In this document: positions 29,638-46,451 of the stretch, one piece after another
Layout: each line of letters opens with the position of its first letter
Position numbering within the stretch: the stretch's first letter is position 1
Assembly: GCA_001789205.1 (NCBI GenBank)
Contig: MFYT01000043.1
Coordinates: forward strand, 1 to 58,304
Length of the DNA stretch: 58,304 nt
Source of the DNA: Candidatus Raymondbacteria bacterium RIFOXYA2_FULL_49_16
GTDB taxonomy: Bacteria; Fibrobacterota; OXYB2-FULL-49-7; XYB2-FULL-49-35
Reading direction: 5' to 3'
The notes under the pieces: model-generated
What the model saw: the letters and a program-made list of their open reading frames with translations, nothing else
Database searches by the model: none
Told to the model about the DNA's origin: nothing
Made by a program: the position numbers and the translations under genes

Positions 29638-30936
29638 ATGCGAACGATACTCCATCGCCTTATTGCCGATTTCCAGGAGCGGGTGCTGCCTTCGGGCATA
29701 GACCGGGACCGGGCAGTACCCATGCTGGCGGGTAAAACAGACGCCATCATCGGAATGCGAAGATCGGGGAAGACTTTTCTTTGTTACCAGGCAATTGCCG
29801 CATGCATGAAACGCGGCATTGAAAAATCCCGGATTTTGTATTTTAATTTTGAAGATGAACGGCTCCTGCCGTTGCAATCTAGTCAGCTGACCTATATTCC
29901 TGAACTTTTTTACGAAAATAATCCCGCTCATAAGAACCGGAAATGTTATTTCTTTTTTGATGAAATCCAGCGGATACCTGGATGGGAGCTTTTTGTCCGG
30001 CGTTTAATGGATGCCGAAAACATGCACTGCGTAATAACCGGATCGTCAGCCCGCCTGCTTGGACGGGAGATAGCCACCGCATTGCGGGGACGATCGCTGC
30101 CTGTCGAGGTATTCCCCTTTTCTTTCAAGGAATATCTGCGGTTTCACAAATCCCTGCCCGAGAACTACCGGAACCCGGGCGCAGCGTCCCGGGCTGTTCT
30201 GCAAAAGGCTTTGTCCGGTTACCTTTGGCGCGGGGGATTCCCGGAAGCGCAGAATCTTACCGAAGAATTCAGGATTAAGCTGCTTCAGGGATATGTCGAT
30301 GTCGTGCTATTCAGGGATGTGGTTGAGCGTCATCCCTCGGTCAACATTGAAGCCATTCGATCTTTAATCCGTCAGGCGTCCGCTTCTGTGACCGGATACT
30401 TCAGTATAAACAAGTTCTACCACGCCCTGCGCAGCGCAGGTATTTCATGCACTAAAAATAGTCTGTACGAATATGTATCACTGCTCGAAGATGCGTTCTT
30501 CTTTTTTACTGTTCCAATCTGTTCAAAATCTGAGCGGATCCAACGAGTCAACCCGCGAAAATTGTACCTGTCGGATACCGGATTAATAACGGCGATGACC
30601 AGCAGAATCGATGCGGATTCGGGGATGCTTCTTGAAAACCTGGTTTTCTGCCATTTGCGGCGTGACGGACAAACAATTGAATACTATCAGACTAAAAACG
30701 GCGGGGCGGTCGATTTTATCGCCAGGTCGTCCGATGGGCGCCTTTCCCTTATACAGGTTTGCGCAGACATGATGGCAGTGCAAGCGCGCGCCAGGGAAAT
30801 TGCTGCTTTGGAAGAGGCCATGAAGGAGACGGGCATTCGGAACAGCGCCATCGTAACCCTTCGAGACCGAGAGACAATCAAAACCGGAAAAGGCACGATC
30901 CATGTGTATCCAGCATGGGAATATATTCTTCAATAA
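29638..30936 (+). CDS. AAA+ ATPase with DUF4143 domain
   Basis: 432 residues. The N-terminal AAA_14 ATPase has Walker A GMRRSGKT (39-46), Walker B CYFFFDEIQ (103-111) and a sensor-1 segment CVITGSSARLLG. The C-terminal DUF4143 region (about 190-380) includes RFRDVVERH-type, KLYLSDTGL and ENLVFCHLRR motifs, ending in a nuclease-like fold (YYQTKNGGAVDFIARSSDGRLSLIQV). These proteins are very common in bacteria and archaea, often in mobile or toxin-antitoxin settings; their function is not settled. The gene has its own promoter with an internal inverted repeat and is followed after 16 bases by a structured repeat/RNA element, so it looks like a self-contained cassette. Confidence 0.8.
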   Translation: MRTILHRLIADFQERVLPSGIDRDRAVPMLAGKTDAIIGMRRSGKTFLCYQAIAACMKRGIEKSRILYFNFEDERLLPLQSSQLTYIPELFYENNPAHKNRKCYFFFDEIQRIPGWELFVRRLMDAENMHCVITGSSARLLGREIATALRGRSLPVEVFPFSFKEYLRFHKSLPENYRNPGAASRAVLQKALSGYLWRGGFPEAQNLTEEFRIKLLQGYVDVVLFRDVVERHPSVNIEAIRSLIRQASASVTGYFSINKFYHALRSAGISCTKNSLYEYVSLLEDAFFFFTVPICSKSERIQRVNPRKLYLSDTGLITAMTSRIDADSGMLLENLVFCHLRRDGQTIEYYQTKNGGAVDFIARSSDGRLSLIQVCADMMAVQARAREIAALEEAMKETGIRNSAIVTLRDRETIKTGKGTIHVYPAWEYILQ

Positions 30937-30952: not shown

Positions 30953-31089
30953 GCCTGTTTTGCATGAAAGTCGACTCTATATATCGTTGAAGGGCCTTCT
31001 CAGTGCAACGATCGGCATCTTTCATGACCCCGCTGGAGATAGCATCTCCAGCCCAATGTCTTCAGGTTCGGCTGCAAGGCGTTTTCTTT
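30953..31089 (+). ncRNA. Structured RNA element, copy A (promoterless)
   Basis: This 137-base stretch is a second copy of the RNA at 35146-35293, colinear from GCCTGTTTTGCATGAAAGTC to the terminal T tract, with a 9-base deletion after GTTGAAGG. Helices: CATGAAAG/CTTTCATG closing a domain that holds ATCGTTG/CAACGAT; GCTGGAGAT-AGC-ATCTCCAGC (31032-31052); and a terminator stem ATGTCTT/AAGGCGT before TTTTCTTT. Its differences from copy B in the stems keep pairing through G-U pairs. No promoter precedes it; it would be reached by read-through from the DUF4143 gene and probably acts as that gene's terminator. Confidence 0.6.
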
Positions 31090-31702: not shown

Positions 31703-32118
31703 GTGAGTCCGAAAGATCGAACCTACGACTTCAATGCCTTTCTTATGGCATGTGGAAACCCGGAGAGTGTTTTAATAAAAGGTTCGACAGTTGAAGATGC
31801 GAAACGAGATTTCAACTTGAATTCAAGGAGGGCCATTCTTGATTTCATTGTCGCTGGGGGTTTGAAGGAATTATCATTCAATAACTCTGCGCCGTTACAA
31901 AAAGACTGGATGGCTCAAAAGGAAGGTTGTTCGATGCGTATAACTTCCGGGATTGCGGGAAGCTTGGTTATATCGCATTCTTTTATAATGAAAAACAAAA
32001 GCTATGGACCATCAAATCATTCCATGTTTGCGACACCTCGAATACCGCGATAAAAGATGCTCTTGAAAGAGCCGGATTATTGGAAGACAAACAACATGAA
32101 ACAAAAAGGGGCCTGTAA
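31703..32118 (+). pseudogene. MqsR-like toxin gene, frameshifted
   Basis: The GTG at 31703 opens a frame (MSPKDRTYDFNAFLMACGNP...) that makes sense up to about 31925. The continuation LFDAYNFRDCGKLGYIAFFYN, then EKQKLWTIKSFHV, lies one base out of register (31927-32118), so one base appears to be lost near 31926. Joined, the product would be about 138 residues. The order of elements (DA...FNL..RAILDFI, L.F...., DAYNF, then YIAFFYN...LWTIKSFH) resembles MqsR, the RelE-fold mRNA interferase, and the next gene is MqsA-like. The similarity is by eye and weak. The stop TAA abuts the ATG of the antitoxin-like gene. Either the toxin is inactivated or programmed frameshifting is used; no slippery site is apparent. 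Confidence 0.45.
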
Positions 32119-33320: not shown

Positions 33321-34211
33321 TTAGAGACCTCTTTCCTCCTCATTTTCCATATCAGCCCTGCATCTCAAGTCCGTGATATGAGCAACAGACCAAATTACGA
33401 AATCAGGCTTGCCGCCAATTTCTCTTATTGCTCGATACCGGAGACTGGCAATTTGATCAGCATATCCGCTTAATTCAGGCCTAGCTGGCTCTGCCATTGA
33501 TGGCGTCCTGAAACCCCAAGAAAGCACATACGCAGCCAAGTCGGCCAATTGGACGCCGGTTGTAAGATCACTATGAACGAAGAAGGGTTCGGGAATGATC
33601 CGGTCCGCCCTCATTTTACCCTTGGCTGTGTCCCGAAAATATCTATACATCTGGTTTATCAGAATATGGCTTTTTGCCTTCTCAAGTTCGTCAAAAACAA
33701 CAAGACCTTGGTTCTCATGCCCCATGTCCTCAAGGAAATAGTGGAAGCGTTCGAAGAGATAGGCGTAGTCTTTACGGATGTATTCACCTGCTTCGGGTCT
33801 AATAGCGTTCTTTTCGACAACACTCGCAAAAACCCGGCAGTGAAATCTTGCCATATCGCTGAAGACATCCTGGACAAAAGCGAGTTTGGCCTGCGCTAAT
33901 GCGGCAATCTGCTGTGAATCTGCGCCAGGACCATTATCAAGACAGGCATGCGCCAGGCGAACACGCTCTTCATAAGGTAGAATGGACAGTTGCGCTGCAT
34001 GCCGAAACACTTTTTTCTTTAATACTTTTCTCGCTTTTAGCTCAGAAGGGCCCGAGGAATACCGCCGTCCAAAATGTTTATACTCCAGTTGGTGGAGGGA
34101 TTTGATCAGGTTCCACAAATCACGATCGGCGACAGAAACGCCAGCGAGAACTTCATAGGGGCTCTCTTTAAGATCGCAGCCACTCTCATCGATGAATAGA
34201 AGATGTGCCAT
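33321..34211 (-). CDS. DUF3800 domain protein
   Basis: 296 residues. The N-terminus MAHLLFIDESGCD and the C-terminal EPFFVHSDLTTGVQLADLAAYVLSWGF are the two signatures of DUF3800. The family has a predicted RNase H-like fold in which the acidic residues (Asp in FIDESG, Asp in QLADLAAY) line a putative active site. It is widespread in mobile and defence contexts, with unknown function. Families of structured RNAs (DUF3800 motifs) are known to lie next to such genes; a candidate lies immediately downstream on the opposite strand. It is the last gene of the - strand run that begins with the type I R-M genes, 46 bp after the methyltransferase-like gene. Confidence 0.8.
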   Translation of the reverse strand: MAHLLFIDESGCDLKESPYEVLAGVSVADRDLWNLIKSLHQLEYKHFGRRYSSGPSELKARKVLKKKVFRHAAQLSILPYEERVRLAHACLDNGPGADSQQIAALAQAKLAFVQDVFSDMARFHCRVFASVVEKNAIRPEAGEYIRKDYAYLFERFHYFLEDMGHENQGLVVFDELEKAKSHILINQMYRYFRDTAKGKMRADRIIPEPFFVHSDLTTGVQLADLAAYVLSWGFRTPSMAEPARPELSGYADQIASLRYRAIREIGGKPDFVIWSVAHITDLRCRADMENEEERGL

Positions 34212-34257: not shown

Positions 34258-35064
34258 TCAGGTTACGTGGTGTTTTAACCAATTATTGAAACAAGTCTTC
34301 AAGTCTTTGATTTTGCACTCAAATCCTCTATAAATTATAAACGAAGCCATATTCCCGTCTGCTGTCACGGTGGAAAGCAGCTTGAATCCGGCCGGAGTCA
34401 TCTTCTGCAGGATCGTGTCCTCAATCCTTTCGACTGAGTTGTTATTGTTGGCGCTGTACGATGAAAGCTGGATAACACAGGGCGTAGCATACCTGTTCAG
34501 CCATCCGGTAATCCGGTCCAGGTCAGCCGGATACATAGTAAATCCGTCATTGCCTGTTTGCTGGTTGCATTCGAACCTGTTAGGATCGAATTGTATCAGA
34601 CAGATATCCGCTGGTTTGAGAACAAGTCCTTGGCGCCAATCACGCTGAGAAACTTCGGATTCTTGAATTGTTTCCTTTTTTCCCAGTAATGCGAGAAAAG
34701 CGTGAATATCCGTGGCTTTTGCGGGGTCGATTTCGCAAAGGTGCATGGAAAGCGCACCTTGCCATAGGGTAGCGACAAATACGGTTGAAGATGGGTAGGG
34801 CAGGCCTGATCTGCCTGAGAGTTTCTGCCAGGTGAATTCATAGAGCGATTGCCGGCCGGGTAAAACCTTTCTGACTTTTTCGAAATCGGCGTGAGAGCTG
34901 CTTTTATATCCTCCTGCTTCCGGCAGGGAGAAGGGGGCCATTGCATAGGCGTCGATGTAATGGAGATGAGCCTTTTCGCCGAATTCGGATTTGAGCATGG
35001 TCAGGAGCTCGCAGAGAACCCAGTGTTGCAGGAGGTTGCCACGGTTTGCTTTGAAAATAGCCAT
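34258..35064 (-). CDS. Methyltransferase-like protein (TcmP/RlmJ-type resemblance)
   Basis: 268 residues, soluble. The N-terminus NRGNLLQHWVLCELLTMLK followed by HLHYIDAYAMAPF resembles the SAM-binding start of three-Cys-motif partner (TcmP) and RlmJ-like methyltransferases (HW.L...L......YIDAFAGPG). ICLIQFDPNRFE could correspond to the catalytic DPP[YF]-type motif but is altered (DPN). I did not recognise a close family. If it is a methyltransferase, the changed motif may mean altered or lost activity. It has a - strand promoter TTGATA-17-TATCAT (35145-35117) that overlaps the + strand promoter of the RNA at 35146. Confidence 0.4.
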   Translation of the reverse strand: MAIFKANRGNLLQHWVLCELLTMLKSEFGEKAHLHYIDAYAMAPFSLPEAGGYKSSSHADFEKVRKVLPGRQSLYEFTWQKLSGRSGLPYPSSTVFVATLWQGALSMHLCEIDPAKATDIHAFLALLGKKETIQESEVSQRDWRQGLVLKPADICLIQFDPNRFECNQQTGNDGFTMYPADLDRITGWLNRYATPCVIQLSSYSANNNNSVERIEDTILQKMTPAGFKLLSTVTADGNMASFIIYRGFECKIKDLKTCFNNWLKHHVT

Positions 35065-35110: not shown

Positions 35111-35145
35111 TTGACAATGATAACACTATTCTTTAATATTATCAA
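35111..35145. promoter_or_regulatory. Overlapping divergent promoters (RNA B and methyltransferase-like gene)
   Basis: On the + strand TTGACA (35111-35116), 17 bp, TAATAT (35134-35139) drives RNA B. On the - strand TTGATA (35145-35140), 17 bp, TATCAT (35122-35117) drives the gene starting at 35064. The two promoters occupy the same 35 bp, so RNA polymerase can use only one at a time. Confidence 0.65.
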
Positions 35146-35293
35146 CAAGCCTGTTTTGCATGAAAGTCGACCCCATGCCGTTGAAGGGTGATTAGCGGCC
35201 TTCTCAGTGCAACGATAGGCACTTTTTATGACCCCGCTGGAGATAGCATCTCCAGCCCGACGCCTTCAGGTTCGCCTGCGAGGCGTTTCTTTT
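35146..35293 (+). ncRNA. Structured small RNA, copy B (own promoter and terminator)
   Basis: A near-consensus promoter (TTGACA-17-TAATAT) predicts a start at about 35146, where similarity to copy A begins (35149). The transcript of about 148 bases can fold into: an outer helix CATGAAAG/CTTTTTATG; an inner helix CCGTTG/CAACG capped by AAGG/CCTT; a perfect hairpin GCTGGAGAT-AGC-ATCTCCAGC (35236-35256); and a terminator stem ACGCCT/AGGCGT (35260-35286) before TTTCTTTTT. Stem differences from copy A are compatible with pairing. No convincing coding frame is present. It ends against the stop codon of the convergent small gene at 35294. Function unknown; a regulatory or protein-bound RNA is likely. 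Confidence 0.7.
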
Positions 35294-35698
35294 TCAGGTC
35301 GAATAGTGTATGATTGAATCGAAAAGACATAGGTCAGCGGTATCGGCAATTTGCAATGCAATCAGTATTTGTTTTTCTTTTTCATCAGGAGGCGGCCAGT
35401 TCACGATATTTGCATGCCGGGGCGGAGGTTCTGCTTTCTCGATCATCAAACCCGCAGAAAGAACGCTATCTGTATGAAATTTACCAAATCCGTACAACTT
35501 GGGGACAGCCGGGCCTAAAACGTGGCTTCGCCCGCATTCTTCGACTTCGGCTGATGTTTGATTTTCGATATCGAATATTGATGCTTTGTTGTCTTTTGCG
35601 GCCGGCATGAAAGCAGGACGTTTTACTTTGTTGTTCGTCCTGCTGAAATGTCCTGTTTGAGTCAGAAATCGGGCAGCCGTGAAACGATCGTTATTCAC
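35294..35698 (-). CDS. Uncharacterised protein, last gene of a five-gene operon
   Basis: 134 residues starting at a GTG that overlaps the previous stop (GTGA, 4 bases). Soluble. A central NIVNWPPPDEKEKQILIALQIADTADLCL stretch may be helical; the N-terminal 60 residues are basic and look unstructured. I recognise no family. Position and overlap show that it is translated with the gene before it. The stop is met head-on by the terminator of RNA B. Confidence 0.6.
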   Translation of the reverse strand: MNNDRFTAARFLTQTGHFSRTNNKVKRPAFMPAAKDNKASIFDIENQTSAEVEECGRSHVLGPAVPKLYGFGKFHTDSVLSAGLMIEKAEPPPRHANIVNWPPPDEKEKQILIALQIADTADLCLFDSIIHYST

Positions 35699-38893: not shown

Positions 38894-40081
38894 TTACTGC
38901 TGAAACGCCCCTTGAATCAGGGCGCCAAACAGGTTTTCCAGTTCCTTCTCTGATTTACGCTGTTTTTCTTTGAGTTTTTCTGATTTTTCAACAGTTACAG
39001 CAAATTGCCTTTGCATTTCAAGTGGGGGCATGGGCAAAATCAATTCGTTACCGTACTGGTTGGCATTAATATTTGGTTGAGCGACGACCTTTTGTTTCGA
39101 TTTTACCCATTTGTTATATGCTTCTGTCTTTGTGAAATAAAATAAATACTCAGGATGTAAGATTTTAGGGTTTGGACGAAATCGGATCAAATATCCCGCA
39201 AAGATTGTAAATCCATCTTGTTTTCTATAGTGGTAAGTCTTGCCAACTGTTGCACCGGAACGGGCAAAAAGAATATCACCATCTTTTAATATGCAATCAG
39301 CCCATTCAGCTTCATCTGTGCTTGGTGAGACGCAATCATTGTTTAGTGTTCCATCTTCATTGATATCGGTAATTCTGATATACCGGGGTTTTGCATTATT
39401 GAAAGGGATTGCTGATGCACCAGAACCGTACTGTCCTTTTCTTTCACAGGAATCCTCAAGAGATTTAACTTCCCAACTCTTCTCATTCCTCACCGGGTCG
39501 CCGAACATTTCCAGGAACACGGACTTGAGTAACTCGTCTGCGAGGCGCATGGCTTCGCGGCGCTTGTGCAGGGCCGCCTCTGCGCGGGAAAGCAGGTCCG
39601 CGATGCGGCGCTGTTCGGGCAGCGGGGGGAGGGGGATTTTAGCTTCCAAGATGATTTTATCGGATACGGCCGGGTAACTTGCCCCCGTGGCTCTATCAGT
39701 CAGATATTGGATAAACGATGGATGTCTTGTGAAATAGAACAGGTAGTCTGGGTCCAGTTTCTTCTGATCTGGTCTCAAAACACAAAACCCAGTTGAACAA
39801 ATCTCATCATTCATAGCCGCTGAAACCTTTGCGACTGCATTTAAATTCGGTCTTACAGTAGAAACAAGGACATCATTCTCGTTAACGACCTTCCGTGCCC
39901 TGCTCGGAGCCTCTGAGCCAATTAATTGCTTTGGATTTTCAATTCGTTTTAAAATCCGATCGACAGATTCTATGTCTACATAGATAAATGGTTTTGCAGA
40001 CCATTCTTGAGGATTTCTTTGATGTGTTTTAAGAGCAACTTCCGCAAGTGTAACGCAATTCATATTATTTTCCATACTCAT
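38894..40081 (-). CDS. hsdS: Type I restriction-modification specificity subunit HsdS
   Basis: 395 residues with two target-recognition domains (about 1-150 and 205-350). They are separated by the helical spacer ILEAKIPLPPLPEQRRIADLLSRAEAALHKRREAMRLADELLKSVF and followed by the second one near the C-terminus (LILPMPPLEMQRQFAVTVEKSEKLKEKQ). This is the classic HsdS arrangement. TRD1 and TRD2 each define half of a bipartite DNA target. It works with HsdM (40977) and HsdR (43668). It has its own candidate promoter (40130-40102) and is separated from hsdM by a DUF3800 gene and an RNA gene. Confidence 0.9.
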   Translation of the reverse strand: MSMENNMNCVTLAEVALKTHQRNPQEWSAKPFIYVDIESVDRILKRIENPKQLIGSEAPSRARKVVNENDVLVSTVRPNLNAVAKVSAAMNDEICSTGFCVLRPDQKKLDPDYLFYFTRHPSFIQYLTDRATGASYPAVSDKIILEAKIPLPPLPEQRRIADLLSRAEAALHKRREAMRLADELLKSVFLEMFGDPVRNEKSWEVKSLEDSCERKGQYGSGASAIPFNNAKPRYIRITDINEDGTLNNDCVSPSTDEAEWADCILKDGDILFARSGATVGKTYHYRKQDGFTIFAGYLIRFRPNPKILHPEYLFYFTKTEAYNKWVKSKQKVVAQPNINANQYGNELILPMPPLEMQRQFAVTVEKSEKLKEKQRKSEKELENLFGALIQGAFQQ

Positions 40082-40084
40082 AAT

Positions 40085-40130
40085 TTGACATTTTGCCCGC
40101 CATTATATATATTATTATTAATCCAATCTA
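40085..40130. promoter_or_regulatory. Overlapping divergent promoters (RNA C and hsdS)
   Basis: On the + strand TTGACA (40085-40090), 17 bp, TATATT (40108-40113) would start an RNA near 40120. On the - strand TAGATT (40130-40125), 17 bp, TATAAT (40107-40102) would start hsdS mRNA near 40095. The two promoters overlap face to face, as they do at 35111-35145. Confidence 0.6.
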
Positions 40131-40190
40131 TTGGAGGTGGATAGCCCGCGATGGGCTAGCGTGAAAGTCCCGGTGCAAGCCGGGCTTTTC
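40119..40190 (+). ncRNA. Small structured RNA C, between hsdS and DUF3800
   Basis: A consensus promoter (TTGACA-17-TATATT) leads into about 70 bases that fold into three hairpins: CCAAT-CT-ATTGG (40123-40134), TAGCCC-GCGAT-GGGCTA (40142-40158), and AAAG(U)CCCGG-TGCAAG-CCGGGCUUU (40164-40188). The last hairpin is followed by TTCATTTTC and acts as an intrinsic terminator. The transcript ends 14 bases before the stop of the convergent DUF3800 gene. Structured RNAs beside DUF3800 genes are an established pattern (DUF3800-I to -XI motifs). The word TGAAAGTC is shared with RNAs A and B. Resemblance of GTGAAAGTCCC to group II intron domain I was considered, but no intron parts follow. Confidence 0.65.
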
Positions 40191-40203
40191 ATTTTCAACC
40201 GTT

Positions 40204-40980
40204 TCACAGCAGCGCCTTCCCTTCTTTTCCATGAAAAAACCTGTCTTCGATCGTTGCGTAGATACGGGCTCCAAAAGAACTTTCCCAAACATCTTTTTCA
40301 CTACCAGACAGAACCGTGGCCTGCTTGCAGGGATGGGCCAACAAGTCTGCAAGCTGGGTACCCGCGATATTCGCGCTTTTTGGCTTTATCTTTATTTCAG
40401 AACTCGATAGCACCTGTTTGAAGTACGAAGGAGTGCGCGCGATTGTCCCATTCTCCAACAAGGCTCTATATGCTCCTTTTAGCTGGATGTCCTCGTGGCC
40501 ACCCCTATTTTCTGCGAGAACATCGCCAATGCCGTTCTTCTCACGCAGAAACTCCGCATATTTTTCAACCAGAGTAACAATGCAATAGTGATAGGGATGC
40601 ATGGCCGCCTCGTGGAATCGTTCCATATGAGACTTCTTATCAAGGACAACGGTAAGAAGCGTTGTCTCCGTGTTTTTCAGGAAATCGAGAAGCGTTTGAT
40701 TGAAGGCAGTCTCAACAGACTTGTCCCTGAGCGGCCAAAATCTGCCTCTGCGATTGATCAGGTCGGTTCGGTGAAGAATGACCGGCTGATCAGGACTGTG
40801 CGGGAAAAACCGCTGTTTGAGTGCTTCAAAACCGGGCTGAAAGGTCAGACGGTAATAACCGCTCTCCAATATGCAACCTGTGATACCAAGAAACCTTCTG
40901 GCCGGATTTACAATATCATTGAAGGTATGGTCGCCGGACTCGTCGATGTATAAACGATACCGTAGTTTTTCAATACTCAT
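40204..40980 (-). CDS. DUF3800 domain protein within the R-M operon
   Basis: 258 residues from the ATG at 40980, which overlaps the hsdM stop by 4 bases (ATGA); an upstream GTG at 40986 is possible. YRLYIDESGDHTF at the N-terminus and IAGTQLADLLAHPCKQ near the C-terminus are the DUF3800 signatures; SSEIKIKPKSANIAGTQLADL matches the longer family pattern. The family has a predicted RNase H-like fold and unknown function. Its coupling to hsdM means it is made whenever the methylase is made. A structured RNA is encoded right behind it on the opposite strand. Confidence 0.85.
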   Translation of the reverse strand: MSIEKLRYRLYIDESGDHTFNDIVNPARRFLGITGCILESGYYRLTFQPGFEALKQRFFPHSPDQPVILHRTDLINRRGRFWPLRDKSVETAFNQTLLDFLKNTETTLLTVVLDKKSHMERFHEAAMHPYHYCIVTLVEKYAEFLREKNGIGDVLAENRGGHEDIQLKGAYRALLENGTIARTPSYFKQVLSSSEIKIKPKSANIAGTQLADLLAHPCKQATVLSGSEKDVWESSFGARIYATIEDRFFHGKEGKALL

Positions 40981-42491
40981 GGACACATTTTCTTTAGGGT
41001 TCGCAGAGCATCAAAAATATCATTTTCAAGAGATAGTAGTTTTTCTATAATTTTTTCCGGCTTTTCATACTTCACTTCTTCATATTCAACCGCTTTATAC
41101 CGCGAAATTGAGAGATCGCAGTTGTTTTTCCGTATTTCCTCCGCATCAACCCACAGCCATCGGTCTCCTTTTTTCGGCTGCTTCTTTTTATTCCGCGCCT
41201 TCCATTTTTCAATGATGTCCGGAAGATCGTTCTGGTCAATCTTTGCACGCTTATCATCCAGCGAATAACCGTCTGCCTGCATGTCGTAGAACCAGACTTT
41301 GTCCGTCTTCTCCCCCTTGGTGAAAATCATCACCGCGGTAGAGACCCCAGCATAGGGCTTGAAAACACCGGATGGCATGGAAATAATGCCTTCAAGCGCG
41401 CAGGTGTCCATGATGAGCTTGCGCGTGTCCACATGCATGTTGGATGAGCCAAAAAGAACGCCATCTGGCACAATGACCCCGCAACGACCGCCGGGAATGA
41501 GCATGTTCACGAACAGGTTGAGGAACAACAACTCGGTCTTTGGTGTCTTGGAACTACCCACCATGCGCAAATCATCAGCAATATCACTCTTGTCCACATT
41601 GCCCTTGAAGGGTGGATTGGCAAGGATTACATCAAAGTGGTTACGCTCTTCAAACCTTTTCGAGAGTGTATCTGAATACCGGATATTCGGGTTTGTGATG
41701 CCATGAAGAACCATGTTCATGAGCGCAATCCGGACCATGGTTGTGTCAAAATCATAGCCGGTAAACGCCTTTTCACGTAAAAACTGCCACTGTCTTTTGT
41801 CCACAATCTTATCAGCAGTCAAATGGTGCGGCGTACCATCCTCGTCGTATTCAATGTTTTCAGGGTCGGAGTACATTTTCAGGATATGCGTGTATGCGCC
41901 GATCAGAAAGCCCGCTGTGCCTGCTGCAGGGTCGCACACCTTTTCACCCAGTTTGGGGTCAATCAACTCGACCATCATGCGGATAATGTGCCGGGGGGTG
42001 CGGAACTGGCCGTTTGTACCGGATTGGGCGATTTCGCTCAACAGATATTCGTAAATATCGCCCTGAATGTCCGCGCCCTGGGAAGAGAGATTCAGTTCAT
42101 CGATAATTTTAACAGCTTCAAGGATAAGCGATGCCTTGGGAATAAGAAAGACCGCGTCCTTCATGGATTCAGCGTAGAAATTGTTTTCGCCCCGCATCTC
42201 TTTTATAAAGGGAAAGACTTCATCACGCACATGCTTGAGCATGGATTCGGCGTCAAAGTGCATCCAGTGCGACCAGCGGCATTTTTCATTGCCCTTGAAA
42301 ATGGATGTGTATTTTTGATCCCTGCGTTCAGCTGCTTTTTTCTCATGAACATCCATATCCTCAATGCGTTTTATGAAGATGAGATAAGAGATCTGTTCTA
42401 TTGTGGCCAAGGGATTCGCCATACCGCCAGACCAGAAGAGGTTCCAGAGTTTGTCTATTTTGGCTTTTATTTCAGGTTTGGATGTGAGCAT
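40977..42491 (-). CDS. hsdM: Type I restriction-modification methyltransferase HsdM
   Basis: 504 residues. An N-terminal HsdM helical domain (about 8-140) precedes the catalytic domain with SAM motif I DPAAGTAGF (187-195) and the N6-adenine motif IV NPPF (292-295). QGDIYEYLLSEIAQSGTNGQFRTPRHIIRMMV is the highly conserved link. It methylates adenine in the target chosen by HsdS and protects the chromosome. An AGAGG ribosome site precedes the ATG. It has its own strong promoter (42570-42542) after a terminator hairpin behind fic, so methylase can be made without HsdR. Confidence 0.95.
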   Translation of the reverse strand: MLTSKPEIKAKIDKLWNLFWSGGMANPLATIEQISYLIFIKRIEDMDVHEKKAAERRDQKYTSIFKGNEKCRWSHWMHFDAESMLKHVRDEVFPFIKEMRGENNFYAESMKDAVFLIPKASLILEAVKIIDELNLSSQGADIQGDIYEYLLSEIAQSGTNGQFRTPRHIIRMMVELIDPKLGEKVCDPAAGTAGFLIGAYTHILKMYSDPENIEYDEDGTPHHLTADKIVDKRQWQFLREKAFTGYDFDTTMVRIALMNMVLHGITNPNIRYSDTLSKRFEERNHFDVILANPPFKGNVDKSDIADDLRMVGSSKTPKTELLFLNLFVNMLIPGGRCGVIVPDGVLFGSSNMHVDTRKLIMDTCALEGIISMPSGVFKPYAGVSTAVMIFTKGEKTDKVWFYDMQADGYSLDDKRAKIDQNDLPDIIEKWKARNKKKQPKKGDRWLWVDAEEIRKNNCDLSISRYKAVEYEEVKYEKPEKIIEKLLSLENDIFDALRTLKKMCP

Positions 42492-42541
42492 AATGATACC
42501 TCTATAAAGGGTAATTTGAGCTTATTTTTACCACCAATAGT

Positions 42542-42570
42542 AATATAAATTATAAAATATGAAAAGTCAA
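42542..42570 (-). promoter_or_regulatory. hsdM promoter
   Basis: On the - strand TTGACT (42570-42565), 17-bp spacer, TATATT (42547-42542). The predicted start is near 42535, giving a leader of about 44 bases. The -35 box touches the terminator hairpin that follows the fic gene. Confidence 0.65.
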
Positions 42571-42603
42571 TGGGGGTAATACTGCTATCATATTACCCCC
42601 ATT
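42569..42603 (-). terminator. Hairpin after fic, before hsdM
   Basis: Two perfect 12-bp arms (AATGGGGGTAAT 42569-42580, ATTACCCCCATT 42592-42603) with an 11-base loop, at the stop codon of fic. On the - strand it is followed by GACTTTTC, a modest T tract, so it may act as a partial terminator separating hsdR-fic from hsdM. Confidence 0.55.
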
Positions 42604-43666
42604 AGGCCAAATTACCCTCTTTATTACCTGTTTTCTGCCAACGGGCAGCTTTACCTCTCCCAACAGCTTTAATAATACCTTGAGAGCGTAAATCCCTGAG
42701 AATTTTGCGGATCATGTCCCTGCTCACATTGGGACAGTTTTTTTCTACTTCGGTTATGCCAAAAGGCAGCACAAAACGGTTTATTGCGGCAACGACCTGT
42801 TCGGTCTTTGACCCCTTGCCGTTGAAAATGCCGACATTGGCCTCAAATTCCTTGTACGCACGGACAAGCATGCCGTAAAAGTAGGAAAGCCATGTTATGG
42901 AATCATGCTTGCTTGCATGCCAGCCTTCTGACGCTGTGCGCAGGGTCTCGTAGTAACCTTCCTTTGAGTCTTCAATAATACGCTCAAGGCTGATATATTT
43001 GCCAACGCTGTAACCGGCCTTGTAGAGCAAAAGCAGGGTCAGGAGCCGGCCAATGCGGCCATTGCCGTCGGTGAAGGGATGTACGCAGAGGAAATCGAGC
43101 ACGAAAAGGGGAATAAGAATAAGTGGTTCATATGCTTCTGTACGGACAAGTTCCGCATATGCCACAACCAAGTCTGTCATGTACCGAGAGGTTTCAAACG
43201 CTGATACGGGTTTGAAACGGACGTATCGAGAGCCATCAGACCGGATTTCAACAATTTCATTGTCCCCATTCTTCCATGTACCTGCTTTGATTGTTGCGTA
43301 CCGGAAAAGCATGGAATGGAATTGGAGGATGACGTTTTCCGTGATCGGCATGTCCTGGTTGGATTGGTGGATGAGACATAGTATGTCCCTGTATCCGGCA
43401 ATCTCCTGTTCAGACCTGTTGCGAGGGGTGGCGTGCGATTTTACGATTGCCGAGACTCGTTTGTCCGAAGCGATGACGCCTTCAATCCTGTTGGACGACT
43501 GTGTGCTTTGAATAATGGCGCTTTCAAGCAGTTTTTCCATTGCTTCCGGCGACTGCCTCTGATATAATGCTTCCCGGCCCTTGAATTCGCCAAGCACCCG
43601 CAGCTGGTTGGCAATATCAGGGGTAAGCCGAAGGTTTTTCAGATATTCTGGGACGAATGATTTCAT
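42602..43666 (-). CDS. Fic-domain protein (AMPylase/adenylyltransferase family)
   Basis: 354 residues. Fic motif HPFTDGNGRIGR at 196-207 with catalytic His196 and the phosphate-binding loop intact. An N-terminal inhibitory helix motif SSNRIEG (57-63, Glu62) of the class II type would hold the enzyme inactive by itself. WKNGDNEIVEIRSDGSRYVRFKP forms the flap region. The C-terminus (about 290-354) is a winged helix (ISRDMIRKILRDLRSQGIIKAVG type). It would transfer AMP or another NMP moiety to a protein hydroxyl. The gene starts one base after the hsdR stop, with AAGGA inside hsdR. Fic genes inside type I R-M operons are common and their role there is not known. Confidence 0.9.
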   Translation of the reverse strand: MKSFVPEYLKNLRLTPDIANQLRVLGEFKGREALYQRQSPEAMEKLLESAIIQSTQSSNRIEGVIASDKRVSAIVKSHATPRNRSEQEIAGYRDILCLIHQSNQDMPITENVILQFHSMLFRYATIKAGTWKNGDNEIVEIRSDGSRYVRFKPVSAFETSRYMTDLVVAYAELVRTEAYEPLILIPLFVLDFLCVHPFTDGNGRIGRLLTLLLLYKAGYSVGKYISLERIIEDSKEGYYETLRTASEGWHASKHDSITWLSYFYGMLVRAYKEFEANVGIFNGKGSKTEQVVAAINRFVLPFGITEVEKNCPNVSRDMIRKILRDLRSQGIIKAVGRGKAARWQKTGNKEGNLA

Positions 43667-43667
43667 G

Positions 43668-46451
43668 TCAAATCCTTATGCTATTGAAAATGCCGATGAT
43701 TTCTTTCAATTCTTCGTCTGTGAAAAGCTTTGCGGCAGCGTCAGTGCCAAACTGATCAAAAGGCGGTTCGAAAAGGTCGTCATATTCGATGTGTTTCTTT
43801 TTGGCGAAAACGTTTTTCACTGTGCGCAGGAAACGTATCTGGTCAGGTGAAAGCGGGTTGCTGTTGTTGCGTTCCACAATATACGTGTTGAACGAGGCAT
43901 TAACCAGGGTTTCAGGATCAGGGAATTTATACAGGCCCAGGATGCTTTTGATGAACTGAATGAATGTACCATAAGGCTGCTTGTATATTTTCCGCAGGTT
44001 TTCTTCAGAAACATACAATTCCGGCCCATTTACTGTATCTTCTATATCTGCAAGGTCCTTTTCGGAAATGGGCGCGCCAGCTTTGACCTTGCGTAGCGCA
44101 GGATGAGAATTGGCAAGCGCCATGACCTTTTTTTCTACTTTTTCACGATATTCATGCACATACGCGCCCTCGCCATTGGGACCAAACTCGACCCATTCCC
44201 GTTTTGCAATAAGATCGTCCAGGTCAAGTTCAAGTATCTCCCGTTCTTCAATCTGCTTGTGCTTCATGACCGGCGATAGATCATTTTTCAACTGCTCACA
44301 TGAATCATAAGAGATTGTCTGCCAGAATGGACCATCAAGTATGGATCGGATGAGCGGTTCGTGTTTTTTAACAACGCCAAGATTATGCGGAAGTTTCCGG
44401 CAGTCTGAAACAATGTCCTTCTTTGCCCGTTCAAGTTCCTCTTTCTGTTTCAGTAATAGCGAGAACCCGAGTTTTTCCGTGGCATAAATAAATGATTCTT
44501 CAGGGATGGAACAGTCGCTTTTGTACTTGAGCAGCGGAGCGATGGTTTTTTCAAGGTATTCGCGCGACTGCACGTCAAAATCATCCCAGACAGCAGGGGA
44601 GAGGGCCTTGTCTATGTTTCGTTTGTTTTCTTTGATTGTGATCGAGTTCGAGGGAAGCGCCTTTATATCTGCAATAAGCTCATTTTTTACATATTCAAAG
44701 CGTTTTGTATCCTTTGAATCCAGGAAAAATGTGGCTTTCTGGAGCCTGAGTTTGAAGATTTTAGCAGGCAGGGGGTCTGGCGTGGCAGGTTTTTCCCCAT
44801 CGGGCTTTTCGCCAAAGTATTCAAAGTTGCCCCAGTGGTCGATTATCAGGAACCGGTCTTTTGCCATGCACCAGGGTTTGCGTTTCGCAGGGTCAACATG
44901 CAGCACTCGGGTGCCGCGGCCGATCATCTGCCAGAACTTAATTTTACTGAACACGGGTTTTGCAAAAACAAGGTTCACAATCTCGCGCACATCCACGCCC
45001 GTGTCCAGCATGTCCACGGAAATGGTAATGCGCGGGTAGCTCTCATTCTTGAATTTATCGAACAGTTTCAGAGGGCGTTCCATTTTTGAATCAATAACTT
45101 CAGAAAGCCTGCCTTGGTATTCCGGATAAAGCTTGTTGAAAAGCAGATGCAGCCGTATTGCATGCTTATGTGAGACCGCGAAGATAATTGTCTTACCCGG
45201 AACAACGCCGCCGTCGTCCTTTATGGACACATCCATGAATTCACGGATCAATGTTTCATTAGTCCCCTCGTTGGTCACCTTTTTTTCAAGATCACTGCCT
45301 TCAAAATCCAGTTCGTCCGGTAAAAGGCCCTGTTCAAGGAGCTTGTTGCGCACCACTTCGGGCAAATCGCGGCCTTTTATACCCTGCACTTGGAATTGGG
45401 TTTGGGCAGCATAGGGTGGCCGGAAGTCCACAAGGCATTTTTCCTGTATGGCATGTTCGTATGGATAGACAAACGTTGGGAGATTGTCCAGGCACCCGAA
45501 GAACCTGAACGTGTCCCGTTCAACGAATTCAGAAGGCGTTGCCGTTAATCCAATCTGAACTGCTTGAAAATAGCTCAAAACATCGCGCCATTTGTTATAA
45601 ATTGACCGGTGGCACTCGTCAGATATTATCACGTCAAAAAAGCCCGGTGTTACCGTGGTAAAACATTCCATCATGGTCTGGATAGTGGAAACATAGAGGC
45701 GTTTGGCTGAATCAATATGGCCGGACCTGATGTATTCGCGCGGTTCCTCGGGCAGATGGTCCTTGAAGCCGTCGTTGAAGGCCTGGACAGCCAGGGCTTC
45801 CCGGTCAACAAGGAACAGGACGCGCTGCGCCCATTTTGCCCTGAGCATAACATCTACAAGCGCCATGGCTGTCCGTGTTTTACCAGTACCAGTCGCCATT
45901 ACCAGCAGGAATTTCCTGTGGTTTTTCATAAGGCCCGAAGAAATTCGTTTGATTGCTTCTGCTTGGTAGGCCCGGTCGGCTATTTCCTTTTTAATTGGTG
46001 TGGCCAACAGGTTGTTCCGGTTTTGGTTCTGAAAGCGTATGCGTTCAAGATCATCGCGGGAGAAAAAACCATGTACCATTGTTTCCGCCGCAAATTCCCG
46101 GTTCCAGAACCATGTTTCATAGCCATTGGTCAGAAAGATAAAGGGGGAAACACTAAAGGTCTTTTTTATTCCATCGGCATAATCAGCGGCCTGTTGTTTG
46201 CCTGCAATTGGGTCGCGGCTGGTTTTCTTGGCTTCAACAACGGCAAGTGGGTTGCCGTAACGGTCGAGAAGCAGATAATCGACAAATCCGGAAGCTGGGG
46301 CTGGACGCCATACCCGTTCTTTCCCAGCCCCGGAAACCTCTAATTCAATCATGACGTCTTTGCGGTTATGCACGTCCCAGCCCGCATCCCCAAGCATGGA
46401 GTCGATGATCTGCCTGCGAGTGGACTGTTCGTCCAGTTTTTCGGTTCTCAT
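43668..46451 (-). CDS. hsdR: Type I restriction endonuclease HsdR
   Basis: 927 residues. N-terminal PD-(D/E)xK nuclease: Asp58 in FVDYLLLDRYGNP and E73-A-K75 in VVEAKK. Superfamily 2 translocase motor: Walker A MATGTGKT (185-192), DECH box (278-281), GLTATP, and motif VI IGRGTR. A long C-terminal helical region binds HsdM. The protein cleaves unmodified DNA after ATP-driven translocation. It is the first gene of the R-M operon; fic, hsdM, DUF3800, hsdS and the PIN gene follow on the same strand. No strong promoter or ribosome site is visible in the 71 bases upstream; a weak TTGTAC-17-CAATAA is the best candidate. Confidence 0.95.
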   Translation of the reverse strand: MRTEKLDEQSTRRQIIDSMLGDAGWDVHNRKDVMIELEVSGAGKERVWRPAPASGFVDYLLLDRYGNPLAVVEAKKTSRDPIAGKQQAADYADGIKKTFSVSPFIFLTNGYETWFWNREFAAETMVHGFFSRDDLERIRFQNQNRNNLLATPIKKEIADRAYQAEAIKRISSGLMKNHRKFLLVMATGTGKTRTAMALVDVMLRAKWAQRVLFLVDREALAVQAFNDGFKDHLPEEPREYIRSGHIDSAKRLYVSTIQTMMECFTTVTPGFFDVIISDECHRSIYNKWRDVLSYFQAVQIGLTATPSEFVERDTFRFFGCLDNLPTFVYPYEHAIQEKCLVDFRPPYAAQTQFQVQGIKGRDLPEVVRNKLLEQGLLPDELDFEGSDLEKKVTNEGTNETLIREFMDVSIKDDGGVVPGKTIIFAVSHKHAIRLHLLFNKLYPEYQGRLSEVIDSKMERPLKLFDKFKNESYPRITISVDMLDTGVDVREIVNLVFAKPVFSKIKFWQMIGRGTRVLHVDPAKRKPWCMAKDRFLIIDHWGNFEYFGEKPDGEKPATPDPLPAKIFKLRLQKATFFLDSKDTKRFEYVKNELIADIKALPSNSITIKENKRNIDKALSPAVWDDFDVQSREYLEKTIAPLLKYKSDCSIPEESFIYATEKLGFSLLLKQKEELERAKKDIVSDCRKLPHNLGVVKKHEPLIRSILDGPFWQTISYDSCEQLKNDLSPVMKHKQIEEREILELDLDDLIAKREWVEFGPNGEGAYVHEYREKVEKKVMALANSHPALRKVKAGAPISEKDLADIEDTVNGPELYVSEENLRKIYKQPYGTFIQFIKSILGLYKFPDPETLVNASFNTYIVERNNSNPLSPDQIRFLRTVKNVFAKKKHIEYDDLFEPPFDQFGTDAAAKLFTDEELKEIIGIFNSIRI

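Follow-up and report, generated by a model that had tools for sequence, protein, structure and literature searches.

A predicted small-RNA gene in a defence island of Candidatus Raymondbacteria and its assignment to a two-hairpin RNA family linked to NYN nuclease genes

The small RNA predicted in a defence island of Candidatus Raymondbacteria bacterium RIFOXYA2_FULL_49_16 almost certainly belongs, on sequence grounds, to a family of two-hairpin RNAs linked to NYN nuclease genes. This family is absent from Rfam and apparently undescribed. The window analysed here is a stretch of 58,304 nt of contig MFYT01000043.1 and contains two copies of the RNA, named A and B. Judged by its relatives, the RNA is composite: its 3′ 64 nt fall within the family and its 5′ ∼82 nt are private to this genome. 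The features of the window referred to below are as follows.

29638-30936, + strand: AAA_14-DUF4143 ATPase gene (PADLOC PDC-S01), on the 5′ side of copy B and in the same orientation
30953-31026, + strand: 5′ part of copy B, without promoter, starting 16 nt past the ATPase stop codon
31027-31090, + strand: 3′ module of copy B (50.0 bits, held-out model)
33321-34211, − strand: DUF3800 gene (PF12686, 1.6e-18), 47 nt behind the divergent neighbour gene
34258-35064, − strand: divergent neighbour gene, 268 aa, no recognised family
35111-35139, + strand: sigma-70-like promoter of copy A, TTGACA (35111-35116), 17 nt, TAATAT (35134-35139), predicted start at ∼35146
35117-35145, − strand: overlapping divergent promoter-like site, TTGATA-17-TATCAT, with TG before the −10, directed towards the gene 35064-34258
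35149-35230, + strand: 5′ part of copy A, common to copy B only (64/71 aligned bases), with a weak fold
35231-35294, + strand: 3′ module of copy A, assigned to the NYN-linked two-hairpin RNA family (67.4 bits, E 4.7e-19, held-out model)
35236-35256, + strand: hairpin 1 of copy A, 9 bp with loop AGC, GCTGGAGAT-AGC-ATCTCCAGC (GCTGGAGATAGCATCTCCAGC)
35259-35294, + strand: intrinsic terminator of copy A, ACGCCTTCAGG-UUCG-CCUGCGAGGCGU and a T-tract
35294-35698, − strand: convergent gene, its stop codon abutting the RNA terminator

A small-RNA gene of about 145-150 nt within the defence island is the best explanation of copy A, and we consider it very probable that the gene is real. The initial annotation had proposed a complete small-RNA gene of no known class at this place, and its main elements were recovered: TTGACA-17-TAATAT on the + strand, TTGATA-17-TATCAT on the − strand in the same 35 bp, the 9-bp hairpin with an AGC loop, and the terminator stem with the T-tract that ends the RNA. 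Three promoter-like sites were found in 600 bp, compared with 0.9±1.0 in shuffled sequences, and the + site was equalled in score by 2.7% of shuffled 60-mers; the promoters, judged by these chance statistics, are therefore suggestive and not proof. The competition for polymerase between the RNA and the divergent gene, also proposed in the annotation, would follow from the overlap of the hexamers. The "nested inverted repeats" described 5′ of hairpin 1 are weak, and the structure there is not common to both copies. A second terminator-like stem (AGTGC..GCACT followed by a T-tract) is located at 35206-35223, within the 5′ part of copy A and with no counterpart in copy B, and a short truncated RNA could result from it. 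No match to the window RNA or to the loci of 17 relatives was found in Rfam 15 at the gathering score, in agreement with the annotation. The single match at E 5, ctRNA_pGA1 (E 0.79), was regarded as chance. attC sites, REP elements and tRNA-anticodon mimicry were weighed from the letters and dropped, as nothing supported them.

Copy B (30953-31089) is 82% identical to copy A (35149-35292; E 4.6e-36), so the second copy reported in the annotation is real, but the similarity begins at 35149 and not at 35146. No third copy was detected anywhere in the 5.4-Mb genome. Hairpin 1 of copy B is identical to that of copy A, and its terminator stem is weakened and retained via G-U pairs; no promoter of its own was found. 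The 3′ 64 nt of both copies fold far below shuffled sequences (z about −5.1 for A and −3.8 for B), in contrast to the 5′ 82 nt (z −1.7 and −0.2), for which no clear fold common to A and B was obtained. No relatives of the 5′ part were found in the phage, plasmid, viral, phylum or GTDB collections; pattern searches with it against genomes and viral contigs gave no match, nor did BLAST of the whole RNA against phages and plasmids. Weak BLAST matches in one genome of the sister order were inspected singly and taken as chance. The claim of a complete gene thus stands as to the gene, while the RNA is not of one homogeneous family, only its 3′ 64 nt having relatives.

The 3′ part was first found again within the phylum, in a Chitinivibrionales MAG (locus L083, initially G034/L023). 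A pattern scan with no protein in the query then gave 42 genome contigs from many phyla, about two being expected by chance for 19 specified bases in 257 Gb. One of them, L068, had neither promoter nor terminator and was taken as a chance match, leaving 41 loci; this count and that of the viral loci below are lower bounds. An independent covariance-model scan of 369 proteobacterial genomes detected further members that likewise adjoin NYN genes: six strong carriers (>47 bits) and two weaker ones (L160 and L162), in which the loop is changed to UUUCG. Weak matches to the model within the phylum (≤27 bits) were generic terminators, and no copy was found in E. coli genomes. The carriers span about ten phyla, as counted from the titles of MAGs, some of which may be misbinned. 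Caldimonas manganoxidans, Azoarcus taiwanensis and Thermus oshimai JL-2 are among the cultured carriers.

A canonical member of the family is ∼55 nt long and is organized as TTGACA-17-TATAAT, 6-11 nt, ACCCCGC, hairpin 1, GCCCGAC, terminator and T-tract. Most bacterial copies have such a sigma-70-like consensus promoter, with the −10 ending 6-11 nt before ACCCC. The commonest form of hairpin 1 is GGAGAU-AGC-AUCUCC, the loop consensus of the family is A(U)MGC(A)U, and the terminator stem starts GACGCC..GGCGUC; as the loci were found by exact patterns, the hairpin sequence reported here is more uniform than that of the family. The hairpin stem shows compensating changes (GGGG/CCCC, GGCG/CGCC, GAGA/UCUC and further ones), and loop sequences are constrained (AUAGCAU, AUCGCAU, AGAGCAU, UGAGCAG). 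This variation of stem and loop is clearest in second tandem units, which were not selected by the search pattern. Two tandem units with different but covarying hairpins were found in one intergenic region at ten loci (L063, L065, L070, L071, L078, L082, L084, L086, L098 and L101). In 32 NYN-linked rows, 94.4% of cells pair. Both helices covary: 31 cells are double-changed, where shuffles gave 6.7 and slid controls 2-9, and in helix 1 alone four pairs show double changes.

The model R2 was built solely from these 32 rows, with the window and phage copies held out. Both window copies scored significantly, as listed above, and the phage copies reached 44-84 bits; the E-values of the model are rough. 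Both window copies also contain ACCCC, hairpin 1 with the constrained loop, GCCCGAC and the terminator. The homologues and the covariation by which the initial annotation proposed to check the RNA were thus found for the 3′ half, which has relatives beyond the two copies and two covarying stems. Unlike the family, copy A has its promoter 85 nt further upstream, which gives a 5′ extension, and is not a ∼55-nt RNA.

A gene with an NYN domain is divergent from and adjacent to the RNA in 30 of the 41 bacterial loci, a few of these genes being truncated. PF01936 confirmed the domain at several of the 30, and the proteins start like MQRVxAYVDGFNLYFGL. At many loci a Snf2 helicase, the RNA, NYN, a DUF1156 methylase and a HEPN-DUF499 ATPase follow in this order, the genes lying on the opposite strand and the RNA being antisense. 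This is the Type-1 BREX-related locus (DUF499 ATPase, DUF1156 methylase, Snf2 helicase) of PMC12839542, which mentions neither NYN nor any RNA. Three loci reach a contig end beside the helicase. Stand-alone pairs of NYN and RNA were found in Bacteroidota, Chlorobiota, Gemmatimonadota, Hydrogenedentota, Planctomycetota, Chloroflexota, Myxococcota and others. On a quick tree of the NYN proteins, RNA type R2 occupies one side of one branch (support 92), that is, one change (0/500 shuffles). The RNA core is 91% identical, compared with 28.5% for the 34 nt upstream and 54% for the NYN proteins, the first value being inflated since the loci were picked by an exact pattern within the core.

About one quarter of the loci have no NYN gene, and some of them (L159 near a tRNA and ubiE, and L092) resemble ordinary chromosome; at L067 the RNA is retained and NYN is reduced to a remnant. 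Neighbours of four copies without NYN were identified by eye. The copy at L097:811-866 is beside Vsr and a cytosine methylase, that at L095:7766-7826 behind hicBA-like genes, that at L083:3611-3681 next to an AAA ATPase that may have a TOPRIM-type partner, and that at L159:1501-1556 between a tRNA and a ubiE-like gene.

When NYN proteins were searched and the RNA was ignored, homologues were found that likewise carry a hairpin-terminator RNA, of other sequence. At L178 and L189 such an RNA is divergent from NYN. At six further loci (L179-L183 and L192) a promoter, ACTACTACCCC (CTACTACCCC), a covarying hairpin and a terminator precede NYN on the same strand, which is the order of type III systems. 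The RNA of these loci lies about 70-110 bp upstream of NYN, its hairpin loop is often UUUCG, it has no Rfam match and it looks unrelated to the two-hairpin family. Terminators before genes are common, and the sequences number only six; for these reasons the sense-upstream RNAs of other NYN clades lend support to a wider association and do not prove it.

The family element was also found in at least 35-38 viral contigs. Most of these copies lie behind a stop codon (of ribonucleotide reductase, of a baseplate wedge gene or of a gene next to DnaB) and thus sit at transcript ends. No NYN was detectable in 309 kb around them. The viral terminator stem differs (AACCCCC/GGGGGUU), and ACCCCGC, hairpin 1 and GCCCGAC are retained, which is more than a plain terminator would need.

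There is no NYN gene in the window, nor was PF01936 detected in the genome, whose own completeness estimate is 100%; copies A and B are therefore orphans, solitary like the phage copies. Copy A keeps the placement of the family, being divergent from a gene start and having its terminator at the stop of a convergent gene. Since divergent placement beside a gene start is family-wide, the overlapping promoters of the window gain in interest. The divergent gene had been annotated as methyltransferase-like, for which no support was found: its 268-aa product matched nothing in Pfam, NCBIfam, PADLOC or PDB, relatives were absent from the phylum, plasmids and viral contigs, and the structure model of the protein was of low confidence (pLDDT 39.5). 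The gene is probably in the same operon as the DUF3800 gene. Elsewhere in the window, a Type I restriction-modification operon at 38894-46451 has DUF3800 and Fic (SoFic-like) genes embedded between its subunits. Between the two RNA copies, overlapping frames at 31703-32053 and 31927-32118 (together 31703-32118) resemble one gene broken by a frameshift.

Several known systems resemble these loci in part. AbiF/RCd22, which is carried by prophages, has a structured non-repetitive ncRNA (the abiF-motif RNA) with two conserved motifs that neutralises the adjacent nuclease-type defence gene by RNA-protein contact (PMC12373285). The family shares with it a structured non-repetitive RNA beside a nuclease-type defence gene, and differs in that NYN (PIN-like) replaces the Abi_2/HEPN-type protein, the RNA is another one and is divergent, and inhibition is what we infer here. 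No Rfam match to an AbiF-associated RNA and no Abi_2 gene beside the window RNA were found. As in type III toxin-antitoxin systems (ToxIN, CptIN, TenpIN; PMC5086642), a small RNA, a ribonuclease gene and an intrinsic terminator occur together, some loci have two tandem RNA units, and other NYN clades have the order promoter-RNA-terminator-nuclease. Unlike in those systems, the unit is usually single, there is no repeat array upstream, and relatives do not exceed two tandem units; the RNA of the NYN-linked clade has a separate divergent promoter and is not co-transcribed with the nuclease; and the protein is NYN, not ToxN, CptN or TenpN, the window itself having no nuclease and an unrecognised neighbour. 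The phage-borne copies without nuclease are like pseudo-ToxI, a phage-carried copy of a nuclease-bound RNA whose nuclease is missing (PMC3475682), except that nuclease binding is presumed in our case. Many pairs of NYN and RNA lie inside Type-1 BREX-related systems, between helicase and methylase (PMC12839542), but the island of the window has no such locus.

We favour a nuclease-RNA pair like those of type III or AbiF systems, in which the copies of the window and of phages would be solitary antidotes or repurposed RNAs, and give this reading an even chance. The 3′ 64 nt would be a module normally paired with an adjacent, divergently transcribed NYN ribonuclease gene. The RNA would be the cognate ligand of the nuclease, with hairpin 1 (covarying stem, constrained loop) as the predicted binding site; for the family as a whole the role of NYN ligand is slightly more likely than not. 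Transcription from its own strong promoter would make the RNA abundant and keep the nuclease inactive until infection upsets the balance, on the model of the RNA restraint in type III and AbiF-type antitoxin systems. Linkage to NYN does not show inhibition, and an RNA that activates or guides the nuclease is equally possible. The window and phage copies would be solitary antidotes or decoys, or repurposed RNAs, that retain the nuclease-binding module. In the window, copy A would add a promoter of its own and a 5′ extension private to this genome, and copy B would be the 3′ end of the ATPase transcript. That the window copy serves as an antidote or decoy is doubtful, and its function may have changed, given the other divergent gene and the 5′ extension.

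A rival explanation assumes no functional RNA product: the element would serve only as an elaborate intrinsic terminator, or as an insulator separating convergent or tandem genes. A strong terminator ends every copy, and the phage copies and copy B lie directly behind stop codons. However, most bacterial copies have their own promoter 6-11 nt upstream, with nothing before it to terminate; ACCCCGC, hairpin 1 and GCCCGAC stay even when the terminator stem is wholly replaced; genomes have about one locus each, not many; and the RNA is co-inherited with NYN. We regard this explanation as improbable. Action in cis on the neighbours, by occlusion of the divergent promoter or as antisense to read-through mRNA of the opposite-strand operon, is a little less probable. 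It would fit the antisense position of the RNA in NYN loci, where it lies between the end of the helicase gene and the start of NYN, and in the window the overlapping promoters and the terminator abutting the stop of the convergent gene. Complementarity alone would suffice for antisense action, however, and such action leaves unexplained the constrained loop and the covarying stem, as well as the phage copies, the tandem units and copy B, which lies in sense behind a gene.

Least probable is a partnership between the window RNA and the DUF3800 operon beside it. Several RNA motifs associate with DUF3800 genes (Rfam DUF3800-I, DUF3800-IX; PMC11701678), and the window RNA resembles them in lying near such a gene, the second of the divergent operon. 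Against this, the Rfam DUF3800 models gave no match, no such RNA was found within about 3 kb of five close plasmid relatives of this DUF3800 gene, and no other locus is organized around DUF3800, so that DUF3800 as a general partner was rejected for want of recurrent linkage.

With pairing to NYN as the preferred reading, the loci describe a phylum-crossing, apparently undescribed small-RNA family tied to a nuclease family of BREX-related defence loci, and the same RNA occurs in phages without the nuclease. NYN ribonucleases might even form a broad, undescribed class of RNA-controlled phage defence, in which each clade has its own compact two-hairpin RNA, divergent or upstream, solitary copies in phages and other genomes act as anti-nuclease decoys, and the decoy of the window has gained a new 5′ domain; we put this forward tentatively and think it unlikely in full. 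The control of NYN nucleases, and the phage answer to it, would be open to experiment with an RNA of 55 nt and a protein of 205 aa.
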